From Erysipelotrichaceae bacterium (GTDB taxonomy: Bacteria > Bacillota_I > Bacilli_A > Erysipelotrichales > Erysipelotrichaceae), in the NCBI GenBank assembly GCA_015058955.1, contig SVBJ01000020.1:1-36882 (forward strand): a stretch of 36,882 nucleotides of DNA, in the 5' to 3' direction. The translations under genes and the position numbers were made by a program. The notes below the pieces were generated by a model, which was not told the DNA's origin, made no database searches, and saw nothing but the letters and a program-made list of their open reading frames with translations. Of this stretch, positions 31,236-36,799 are shown piece after piece (within the stretch, counting starts at the first letter, position 1; each line of letters starts with the position of its first letter).

Positions 31236-32804
31236 CTAGTACCCCGTTTTGCTCATTACGTGAATGTCTTCAGGTGTGAATGTCAGATCGACCTTCCTGC
31301 CTACTTCCACATTCTTGTTAGTATGAACCTTGAATTCATGACCCTGAGTGGCAAAGGTGATCTTGTAGTCTCCTTCGGTGATGTTTTCCTCATCGAAGTC
31401 ATATATTACATCGTAGATCTCGATTTCCTGGCCTGTTTCCAGATCCCAGGCTTCTGCAGCTGCCCAGATGCATAAGTCCGTATCCAGGGCAATTGACTCT
31501 CTTAATTCCTCAGCAGTGATGAAGAAGTCGAAGGCTGCAACACCGACGCCCTTCTTGTCATCCTCGATGAACTTAGGTTCCTGCACATAGGCCTTGATGG
31601 TGATCCAGGTTCCATTGGAAGTAGAGAATGTCACATCGTAGGTTCCCGGTTCCTTTGGAATGTCATATTCGACTCTGTGGATTGACAGGAACTCATCATC
31701 GAAGTCCCAGGCCTGGGCATTGGCACGGGCGATCACTTCGGTATCGTTGAGGTTTTCAACGTCTTCAAGGTCCATGAAGAAGTCATTGGCGGAGATCTTT
31801 TCCTGCTTTTCCTCATTGGTGAAGTCGTGGTTGCCGATGACATGCATTGTGATGGTCTTTGAAGCACCGGATACTGTCTGGACAGTTACTTCATTGTGGA
31901 CACCCTTGAAGAGAACGAACTTTACTTCTCCCGGGATGATTCCCCTGCCCCTGGAAACGATTTCCAGATCTTCCGGACGGATCATGATGTCAACAGGTTC
32001 ATTTCTTCTGAAGCCATGGTCTACGCACTTGTAGTCCTTGTCATCAAATGATACCAAGTAATCATCCTTCATGATTCCCTCAAAGATATTTGATTCACCG
32101 ATGAAGTGAGCAACATATTCGTTAATAGGTTCATTGTAGATCTCACTAGGAGTGCCAATCTGCTGAATTGAGCCGTCTTTCATTACGACGATCTTATCAC
32201 TCATGGTCAGGGCTTCTTCCTGGTCATGGGTAACGAAGATGAAGGTAATGCCTACTTCCTGCTGGATCCTCTTCAGCTCGTACTGCATTTCCTTTCTCAA
32301 GGCCTTATCCAGGGCGCTTAAAGGTTCATCAAGTAACAGTACATAAGGTTCGTTGACCAATGCTCTGGCAATGGCTACACGCTGCTGCTGGCCGCCTGAT
32401 AACAGGTTGACATCACGGCTGCCATAGCCTTCCAGACCGATAAGTGAAAGCATACGGTTGACTTTCTGTTCGATGACGTCCTTTGACACCTTCTTCAGCT
32501 TCAGACCGAAGGCAATGTTGTCATAGACGTTAAGATGCGGGAACAGTGCGTATTTCTGGAAAACAGTGTTGATCTCGCGCTTGTAGGCCGGGACCCCTGA
32601 GATATCCTGACCGTCGAAGATAACTTCGCCTTCGTCAGCATCCAGGAAGCCTCCCAGAATTCTTAATAAGGTCGTCTTACCGCAGCCGGACGGTCCCAGT
32701 AAGGTAACAAATTCATTTTCGTAGATATCAAGATTGACGCCTTTTAAGACAACGTTGCCGTCAAAGGACTTGACGATATTACGGAATTCAATCAGTTTCT
32801 TCAT
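31236..32804 (-). CDS. potA: Spermidine/putrescine ABC ATPase PotA with two inserted beta-rich repeats
   Basis: 522 residues; usual PotA is about 350-380. ATPase domain: Walker A GPSGCGKT (37-44), LSGGQQQR (135-142), LLLDE (156-160) and H-loop THD (192-194). The TOBE region starts near 240 ([10 protein letters not shown] at 274-283). It is then interrupted by two similar repeats, about 336-407 and 417-495, sharing the pattern DFF...A.AWD...I..V.YD...G.Y.(V/I)TF.T before the final TOBE strand ([13 protein letters not shown]). The repeats resemble Ig-like modules of Firmicute surface proteins. The start is the ATG at 32804 behind GGGGGAT; an upstream extension to 32924 runs into the regulator gene. 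First transporter gene after the regulator. Confidence 0.93.
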
Positions 32805-32823
32805 TAACTTATCCCCCTGTAAA

Positions 32824-33363
32824 TCAGAATGCCGGTGGTGTGGAAACCCACAGGACTTTGGCAACGCTGTTGCCTTCGTTGACCAGACAGTGTCTGAAAT
32901 CTCCCTTGATGTAGAATGTTTCACCCTTCTTCAGGGTATTGCTGGTGTTGTTGGTCAGATCCTTCAACACAATCTTTCCCTGCAGGATGTATCCCATTTC
33001 CTCACCGTCATGCGGCAGTACGGTCCGGGACATTCCTTCAGGTTCAATCGTCAGCAGCAGCGGTTCCATGTCATTCTGCTGCCGGTTTGGAACCAGATAG
33101 GTTATCTTCATTAATTCCTTTTCATCTTCGAAGTAATCCTGCTCCGTGAATGTTCTCTGAACACTTCTCTCTTCCTGGAAGAATTCACCCAGGGATACGC
33201 CCAATACTTCAACGATGTTTTCCAGTGTCGGTATTGAAGGTGTCGTCAGATTTCTTTCCAGCTGTGACAGGAAGCTCTTGGTAAGCTCCGTACGGCTGGC
33301 CAGTTCTTCAAGAGTCAGGCCGTTTTTTACTCTAAGCTGCTTTACTCTTTTTCCCAGATCCAT
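32824..33363 (-). CDS. HTH-XRE/cupin regulator, PuuR-like
   Basis: 179 residues. An N-terminal helix-turn-helix (about 5-60; [22 protein letters not shown]) is joined to a C-terminal cupin domain (about 105-178) with [14 protein letters not shown] and a His in [10 protein letters not shown]. Regulators of this build, such as PuuR, often govern polyamine uptake or breakdown. It starts 19 nt upstream of potA on the same strand, so it very likely controls its own operon. Start at the ATG at 33363 behind AAAGGAGG; the longer frame to 33396 overlaps that site. Confidence 0.9.
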
Positions 33364-33389
33364 TGCCGTCCTCCTTTGTTTAGTACAAC

Positions 33390-33414
33390 TTAACAAATTG
33401 TTTAATTTTGTTAA
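33390..33414. promoter_or_regulatory. Putative operator of the polyamine operon
   Basis: TTAACAA (33390-33396) and TTGTTAA (33408-33414) form an inverted repeat, with an inner palindrome AACAA-A-TTGTT (33392-33402). It sits just downstream of the predicted -10 box and before the regulator gene, where a repressor would block transcription. Confidence 0.5.
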
Positions 33415-33450: not shown

Positions 33451-33535
33451 TACCTTTTCTTAACTTTTTGTTCAATATTTCTTTACTTCATGTTACCGTG
33501 TTCTCCTGTGCTGAACAATATTCCCGGATAGCTAA

Positions 33536-33551
33536 AATAATTTTGTGTAAA
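33536..33551 (+). repeat. Left terminal inverted repeat of the IS
   Basis: AATAATTTTGTGTAAA; matches the reverse complement of 34850-34865 at 15 of 16 positions. Confidence 0.85.
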
Positions 33552-33560
33552 AACTAAAAA

Positions 33561-33623
33561 GTGAGGTCGTACCTGTAGTAGAATAATTTCGACCAAAAAA
33601 TCATTCGAATAAGGAGACCTCAT
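33561..33623 (+). promoter_or_regulatory. Possible start-codon-sequestering stem of the transposase mRNA
   Basis: GTGAGGTC (33561-33568) can pair with GACCTCAT (33616-33623), covering the first two bases of the transposase ATG (33622-33624) and abutting AAGGAG. It would form only in transcripts that begin outside or near the IS end, a known strategy to silence read-through. Confidence 0.4.
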
Positions 33624-34815
33624 GAACAATTTTACATCGAATATCACTCAGTGTCTATTAGACAACATCGGACCAAACCTTGAAACAGCCATTAAAGAAT
33701 GTGTCAGAAACATGCTGGAAGAAGCCTTCAATGAAATGATGAAGATCGAACTGACATCATTTCTGGAATATGAGCCTTACGAGCGTAACGACAGCGAGGA
33801 TAGTCGCAATGGCTACAGTGACAAAACATTAAATACATCATTTGGCCAAATCAATCTTAAGATACCTCGTGACAGACTCAGTAAATACAGCACAGCCTTA
33901 GTAAACAAGTATCAGAGACATGATGGCACAACTGAAGATACCATCCTTAAGCTGTTTCATTCCGGGCTGACAAACAGTGAGATCAGTGATATCGTAGAGG
34001 CTCTTTACTCTAAAAAGTATTCAAAGTCCACTGTATCAAATATCACCAAACTTGTTACGGATAATGTTGAAGCCTTTAAAAGAAGGCCATTACATCAACA
34101 TTATGCCATGATATATGTAGATGCTACTTATACTCCGATAAGGAGAAAGACTGTTGATAAGGAAGGATTATCAATAGCTATAGGCATCACTCCTGAAGGA
34201 TATAAAGAAGTTTTAAGCTATGTCATTGCACCGCAGGAATCAGCCACCATCTGGGATGAACTGCTCAATGACATCAAGCAGCGCGGTGTACAGACGGTAA
34301 ACCTTTTCGTTACTGATGGTTTATCTGGTATGGTACAGACGATTGAGAGTATCTTTCCAATGGCTAAGATCCAGCGATGCCTGGTACATGTACAGAGAAA
34401 CCTTTATGCGAAAGCCAGAGTCAGAGACCGCAAGGAAGTCATGGAGGACTTCAAGGCTGTATATAATGCCAAAGACCTGGATGAAGCTAAACAGCAGCTC
34501 AGCACCTTTAAGGAAAAGTGGTCAAAGAACTATAAGAATATCATCAAGTCAATAACAGATTCTGAGGAATACCTTCTGACATTCTACAGTTTTCCCAAGA
34601 GCTGCTGGAAATCGATCTATACTACTAACATCATTAAAGGATTCAATAAACAGATCAAGAGGATGATAAAGCATAAGGAGCAGTTTCCTGATCCTGAATC
34701 TCTGGAGAGATTCATCGTATCAATCTTCAACGATTATAACGAAAAGTTCATGTTCAGAGCTCACAAGGGATTCGTAAACACCATTGAACAATGGACAAAT
34801 GGCTCACAACACTAA
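33622..34815 (+). CDS. IS256-family transposase, full length with catalytic Glu replaced
   Basis: 397 residues, full length for the family. Catalytic Asp167 (YVDATY) and Asp232 (VTDGLSG) are present, followed by C-x2-H in RCLVHVQRN. In IS256 the third residue, Glu, lies in TTNxIE. Here the sequence is TTNIIKGFN, with Lys339 encoded by AAA where GAA is expected; the D-to-E spacing (107) matches IS256 (108). The protein is otherwise uninterrupted. A one-base change would explain it, so this copy may be unable to transpose. The ribosome site AAGGAG lies 5 nt before the ATG. Confidence 0.93.
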   Translation: MNNFTSNITQCLLDNIGPNLETAIKECVRNMLEEAFNEMMKIELTSFLEYEPYERNDSEDSRNGYSDKTLNTSFGQINLKIPRDRLSKYSTALVNKYQRHDGTTEDTILKLFHSGLTNSEISDIVEALYSKKYSKSTVSNITKLVTDNVEAFKRRPLHQHYAMIYVDATYTPIRRKTVDKEGLSIAIGITPEGYKEVLSYVIAPQESATIWDELLNDIKQRGVQTVNLFVTDGLSGMVQTIESIFPMAKIQRCLVHVQRNLYAKARVRDRKEVMEDFKAVYNAKDLDEAKQQLSTFKEKWSKNYKNIIKSITDSEEYLLTFYSFPKSCWKSIYTTNIIKGFNKQIKRMIKHKEQFPDPESLERFIVSIFNDYNEKFMFRAHKGFVNTIEQWTNGSQH

Positions 34816-34849
34816 CTCAATGATGTTCTATATCTAACTATGGGAGTAA

Positions 34850-34865
34850 TTTACACAAAACTATT
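34850..34865 (+). repeat. Right terminal inverted repeat of the IS
   Basis: TTTACACAAAACTATT; complement of the left repeat with one mismatch. Located 34 nt after the transposase stop. Confidence 0.85.
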
Positions 34866-34891
34866 GATGCTAGCTAAATTAACGATTTGTT

Positions 34892-34996: not shown

Positions 34997-36799
34997 ATGT
35001 CCAACAGATGGGATAACTTCTTTAACGAAAAACACGAAATTAACTACCCTGCCATGACCATGTATCAGCTCATCAGGGAAAGCGCCAGAAAATATCCTTA
35101 TAACATCGCCTATGAGTTCATGAACAAGAAGACAACTTATTCTGAATTCATGGATAAGATTGAACTGACAGCCAAGGCCTTAACCAGCATCGGCATCAGA
35201 GCCGGTGATGCAGTAACCATCTGCATGCCTAACTGCCCTCAGGCAATCGATACATTCTACGCTCTTAACAGGATCGGCGCCATTGCCAACATGATCCATC
35301 CGTTATCAGCAGTCAACGAAATCACCTTCTACATGAACATCTCCAATTCCAAGGCCATCCTGACCCTGGATCAGTTCTACTCAAAGGTCGTTGAAGCCAG
35401 AAAAGGTGCTGACCATACCGTTGTCATCATCATGGCCAACATTGCCGATGAACTGCCTAAGTATCTGGAGATCCCGTTCAGAGTAAAGAACATGGGTAAA
35501 TATCAGGGTCTGCCTAATGAAGCCTATTCAATTACCTGGAAAGACTTCCTGCACTACGGCAGCAAGTTCCCTCTGCCTTTACCGAAGATCACCTTCGAAA
35601 TTGACAGAACTGCTGTCATCCTGTATTCAGGCGGTACTACCGGAACCACCAAGGGCATTATGTTAAGCGACCTTAACTTCAACGCCCTGGCCTTACAGAG
35701 TTCCGTAGCCATGGAAGTTCCTTATGAAAAGGGACAGAAGATTCTGGCTGTCATGCCGTTATTCCACGGTTTCGGCTTGGGCATCGGCATCCACACCTGT
35801 CTGGTCAAGGGTATCTGCTGTGACCTGATTCCGCAGTTTACCGTCAAGACCTATGCACAGATGCTGGCCAAGAAGAAGCCAAACTTCATTGCCGGTGTTC
35901 CAACCTTATATGAAGCTTTATTAAGAACCAAGGGTCTGGAGAATGTTAACCTCTCCTTCCTCAAGGGCATGTATTCCGGCGGTGACTCTCTGTCAGTAGA
36001 GTTAAAGGCCAAGGTCGACAAGTTCTTAAAAGACCATCATGCTACCATTCAGGTACGTGAAGGTTACGGTACGACAGAATGCGTTACCGCCAGCTGTCTG
36101 ACCCCTGCCAATGACTACCGCGAAGGAAGCATCGGCCTGCCATATCCTGATACTACCTACGTCATCTGTGAACCTGGTACCGAAAAACAGGTTCCAACCG
36201 GTGAAGACGGCGAAATCTGTCTGGCTGGTCCATCCGTAATGTTAGGCTATCTGAAGAATGAAGAAGAAACCGCTCAGACCTTAAGAGTACATGAAGACGG
36301 CAAGACATATCTGCATACCGGTGACATGGGTTACATGGACGCTGACGGATTTGTCTACTTCAAGCAGAGAATCAAGAGAATGATCATCTCTTCAGGCTAC
36401 AATGTCTACCCTTCACAGGTTGAAAACATCATTGATGCTCATCCGAAGGTACTGATCAGCTGCGTCATCGGTGTCCCTGATGCCTACAAGATGCAAAAGG
36501 TCAAGGCGTTCGTCGTTCTCAAGCCAAACGTAGTTCCTGATGAAAGCATCAAGCAGGAAATCCTCGATTACCTGAAAGATCACGTTTCCAAGTGGGCAAT
36601 GCCTTATGACATTGAATTCCGTGAAGAACTGCCTAAGACTCTGGTCGGCAAGGTTGCCTACAGAGTTCTGGAGGAAGAAGAACTCCAGAAGATCGCCGAA
36701 GCAGAAAAGAAAGCCGCTGAGCTGAACGCCCGGGCTGAAGCACGGAAAAAAGAAGCTCCTAAGAAAGAAGCCAATAAAGCAAAGAAGAATGCCAAGTAG
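34997..36799 (+). CDS. Long-chain acyl-CoA synthetase-like adenylate-forming enzyme
   Basis: 600 residues of the ANL superfamily. P-loop YSGGTTGTTKG (210-220), GYGTTE (356-361), ATP/ribose Asp in HTGDMGYMD (440-448), hinge KRMIISSGYNVYPSQVE (460-476) and C-terminal catalytic Lys552 (LVGKV). It probably activates a fatty or aromatic carboxylic acid with ATP and joins it to CoA (or a carrier). The last 45 residues are Lys/Ala/Glu-rich and predicted helical, beyond the normal end of the fold. Strong AAAGGAGG before the ATG. Single gene, next to the IS. Confidence 0.9.
   Translation: MSNRWDNFFNEKHEINYPAMTMYQLIRESARKYPYNIAYEFMNKKTTYSEFMDKIELTAKALTSIGIRAGDAVTICMPNCPQAIDTFYALNRIGAIANMIHPLSAVNEITFYMNISNSKAILTLDQFYSKVVEARKGADHTVVIIMANIADELPKYLEIPFRVKNMGKYQGLPNEAYSITWKDFLHYGSKFPLPLPKITFEIDRTAVILYSGGTTGTTKGIMLSDLNFNALALQSSVAMEVPYEKGQKILAVMPLFHGFGLGIGIHTCLVKGICCDLIPQFTVKTYAQMLAKKKPNFIAGVPTLYEALLRTKGLENVNLSFLKGMYSGGDSLSVELKAKVDKFLKDHHATIQVREGYGTTECVTASCLTPANDYREGSIGLPYPDTTYVICEPGTEKQVPTGEDGEICLAGPSVMLGYLKNEEETAQTLRVHEDGKTYLHTGDMGYMDADGFVYFKQRIKRMIISSGYNVYPSQVENIIDAHPKVLISCVIGVPDAYKMQKVKAFVVLKPNVVPDESIKQEILDYLKDHVSKWAMPYDIEFREELPKTLVGKVAYRVLEEEELQKIAEAEKKAAELNARAEARKKEAPKKEANKAKKNAK

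Follow-up and report, generated by a model that had tools for sequence, protein, structure and literature searches.

An IS256-family insertion sequence with lysine at the position of the catalytic glutamate in an Erysipelotrichaceae genome

In this study, a stretch of 36,882 nucleotides from an Erysipelotrichaceae bacterium (contig SVBJ01000020.1; hereafter, the window) was analysed. We found that it contains a complete IS256-family insertion sequence whose transposase has a lysine, Lys339, where the third catalytic residue, glutamate, is expected. With a probability of about 85%, we consider this copy to be dead and stranded, and to represent an element with recent mobility in a sister species.

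Results

The transposase gene, an ORF at 33622-34815 on the plus strand, encodes 397 amino acids with zero internal stops, and was assigned to the Mutator/IS256 family from its Pfam match and its alignment with the ISCth4 transposase (6xg8). The Pfam domain Transposase_mut (PF00872) covered residues 21-377 (E = 2.5e-113, 379 bits); thus, this domain, a feature of the IS256 family, extends across most of the protein. When the protein was aligned with 6xg8 using phmmer (E = 3.6e-61), D167, D232, and K339 fell on chain residues 178, 244, and 351, which correspond, with a constant offset of 3, to D175, D241, and E348 of ISCth4. These three residues constitute the active site of ISCth4, where the DDE residues come together (PMC7780238). 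The codons of Asp167 (34120-34122, plus strand) and Asp232 (34315-34317, plus strand) are both GAT, and that of Lys339 (34636-34638, plus strand) is AAA. Hence the DDE triad of active members is incomplete, with both aspartates kept and the glutamate replaced. An earlier note on this DNA had claimed the two aspartates, the lysine codon, and a gene otherwise of full length; each of these was borne out by the alignment, by the relatives described below, and by the open frame and intact element ends. A change of GAA to AAA is a single G-to-A transition, and no new acidic residue adjoins position 339 in the transposase.

IS256-family transposases are defined by a C/D-x-x-H motif within a 99-138-residue helical insertion that separates the second Asp from the Glu (PMC3942029). 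In the window's protein, 106 residues lie between D232 and position 339, and an intact C253-x-x-H256 motif (CLVH; 34378-34389, plus strand) is located in the predicted helical insertion domain. Judged from these features and from about 50% full-length identity to active-type members, the transposase appears to be an IS256-family member by descent that has been mutated and is not functional.

Subsequently, position 339 was compared with relatives drawn from 272 family, 315 order, and 395 class genomes and from GTDB genome contigs searched with an alignment. A scan of the GTDB genome contigs with the single protein gave no relatives; the search with the family alignment gave 57 loci. Viral contigs, scanned with the protein, the family alignment, and the motif DNA, contained no relative. 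The site was covered by 93 loci, 74 of them non-identical, with identity down to about 23%. In the comparison with relatives' copies, which the earlier note had proposed, Glu occupied the catalytic column in all 74 non-identical relatives, and Lys was observed in the window's protein only. Therefore, Lys is a trait of no sampled lineage. The nearest full-length homologues found showed 53-54% identity, that is, the protein is about 46-47% divergent from them.

A general decay of the transposase gene was ruled out by a leave-one-out count of 31 sequences, in which the window's protein was set beside 30 non-redundant relatives. The window's protein breaks three of the 41 columns that are invariant in the others (G87S, F89Y, and E339K), as against 0-4 in the relatives. 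Sporadic lesions are not uncommon in other copies, and stops were seen in those of G145, G282, and G287. We also observed a relative in a Succinatimonas MAG (L096, 1546-2634) in which Tyr takes the place of the first catalytic Asp (IFCYATYL, compared with IYVDATYT here); a triad residue has thus been lost independently for a second time.

The element extends beyond the ORF. Its boundaries, 33527 and 34874, were fixed by five different flanks in a congener, G002, in which five contig ends (two left and three right ends) match the element ends with 99-100% identity over 79-140 bp. Accordingly, the element spans 1348 bp (33527-34874, plus strand). The left terminal inverted repeat, GATAGCTAAAATAATTTTGTGTAAA, lies at 33527-33551 on the plus strand, and the right one, GCTAGCATCAATAGTTTTGTGTAAA as read on the minus strand, at 34850-34874. 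The 25-bp repeats are imperfect, with 20 of 25 positions identical, and both contain TGTAAA, a motif reported for terminal repeats of the IS256 family (PMC7780238). The whole thus shows the layout of that family: one ORF, an element of approximately 1.3-1.5 kb, and imperfect terminal repeats with subterminal TGTAAA.

No target duplication of 8-9 bp was found at the element, the flanks ...ATATTCCCG and TAAATTAAC... sharing none. Old copies do not always show target duplications, and the one expected here may have been lost through later change. An 8-bp repeat, TAGCTAAA, is present at both ends; it was rejected as a target duplication because its left copy lies inside the element and is common to the G002 copies. 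At the right end, a -35-like TTGATG (34864-34869, plus strand) was noted as a consensus match. Were the two ends joined across a 6-bp spacer, as in a circle junction, this hexamer would precede the left-end TAAAAT (33533-33538) at a spacing of 17 bp, a layout resembling, at the level of a consensus match, the junction promoter described for the IS256 family.

Four of the five G002 contigs include 139-140 bp of the element, and the fifth includes 79 bp; contigs broken about 140 bp inside are what a repeat produces in a short-read assembly. The three right ends indicate at least three insertions, and the near-identical, multi-copy ends show that the element has multiplied within the genus in recent times. 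For these copies, the interior, including codon 339, was sought by DNA and protein and was not present in the G002 assembly. Among nine genomes of the genus, the element was found in none besides G002. In the genome of the window itself (1.78 Mb in 37 contigs, 95% complete), for which comparison with other copies had likewise been proposed, neither a second copy nor any other relative of the transposase was found by DNA and protein. Furthermore, the assembly crosses the element without a break, in keeping with a single copy.

The element is intergenic, with a transcriptional regulator gene (32824-33396, minus strand) on one side and an acyl-CoA synthetase gene (34997-36799, plus strand) on the other. 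In another congener, G001, both flanks are present and their matched parts lie only about 100 bp apart, which would represent, in outline, an empty site. The nearest congener by the acyl-CoA synthetase (G008, 98% identity) has, upstream of that gene, unrelated sequence and a different small ORF (L046, 3298-3633), for which the window's genome gave no match. At this locus, gene order differs between close species. In the ORF of a PotA-like ABC transporter ATPase (31236-32924, minus strand), a start at an upstream GTG gives an odd N-terminal extension, and the C-terminal part is long; an internal ATG (MKKLIEFRN) is probably the true start.

Discussion

These findings point to the following course of events. 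An intact element of this kind would move by a copy-out/paste-in route, from a figure-eight through a circle to insertion, using a metal-dependent DDE active site. In the window's lineage, the element would have been inserted between the regulator gene and the acyl-CoA synthetase gene, and the Glu-to-Lys change would have come before or after that insertion; if before, the element would have been moved in trans by an intact copy. Replacing a metal-binding Glu with Lys should eliminate catalysis and spare both folding and end binding, so we infer that the Lys339 protein would still fold and bind the ends, without cutting or joining DNA. Being the sole copy in the genome, the element would then be stranded. 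All three catalytic residues of IS256 have been confirmed experimentally (PMC3942029), and the D175A mutant of ISCth4 is inactive, forming neither figure-eights nor insertions (PMC7780238).

The lysine codon could also be a base-call or consensus error, the real codon being GAA and the copy intact. Just one wrong base, G to A, would be needed; however, consensus errors are rare, this one would have to strike one particular base of a 1191-base gene, and the copy is single in the assembly, so that no repeat copies were merged into its consensus. We regard such an error as unlikely. Another explanation is that Lys339 is fixed in the element's own lineage, with catalysis achieved by some other arrangement or movement occurring in trans. 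The divergence of the protein from its nearest full-length relative (about 46-47%) would accommodate this, as would the fact that codon 339 of the near-identical G002 copies was not assembled. Nevertheless, the universality of Glu across such distant relatives, the lack of a new acidic residue beside the site, and the tests of catalytic residues in IS256 and ISCth4 (PMC3942029, PMC7780238) all speak against it, and we consider it very unlikely. More improbable still is that the lineage in which Lys339 is fixed is the recently multiplying one, the G002 copies included, and that it is mobile by another active-site arrangement or in trans; if this were true, an IS256-type transposase without its catalytic Glu would still be mobile.

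The retained open frame and DNA-binding region might suggest, in turn, a domesticated or dominant-negative transposase kept to bind ends or to repress active copies. We saw no sign of an adopted function. In the own genome the transposase has neither a second copy nor a relative, and the other genomes of the genus do not share the insertion; we consider this explanation highly improbable. With no second copy in a 95% complete genome, the interference with active copies that the earlier note had envisaged has no target there and is unsupported, although interference could matter if an intact copy entered the genome. The note's description of the copy as freshly disabled is well supported, provided that the base itself is real. 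The loss of the Glu, the intact frame and ends, and the near-identical multi-copy ends in G002 agree with a stranded copy of a recently mobile element; two other positions invariant in the clade are also changed (G87S and F89Y), so the copy may be of slightly greater age than the word fresh implies, or may simply belong to a divergent lineage.

Taken together, the window adds one more well-delimited IS256-family element, and its biology is ordinary. The case would illustrate a common fate of insertion sequences, in which a stranded single copy loses catalysis while near-identical copies multiply in a sister species.

Among known systems, the ISEfm2 and ISEf1-type elements of Enterococcus are alike, their transposases aligning over nearly the full length with about 50% identity. 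Where the window copy has Lys, the relatives examined from enterococci and other lactic acid bacteria have Glu. The nearest full-length relatives found, at 53-54% identity, are transposases of the Erysipelotrichaceae MAG STE_120 (L060 and L061) and of Holdemanella MAG4 (L062), which, unlike the window copy, have Glu, one STE_120 copy carrying stops elsewhere. ISCth4 (6xg8) is alike in the positions of the DDE and CxxH residues and in the TGTAAA of its terminal repeats. Whereas ISCth4 is active, multi-copy, and flanked by 8-bp target duplications, the window copy carries Lys in place of the Glu, occurs once in its genome, and lacks a target duplication.
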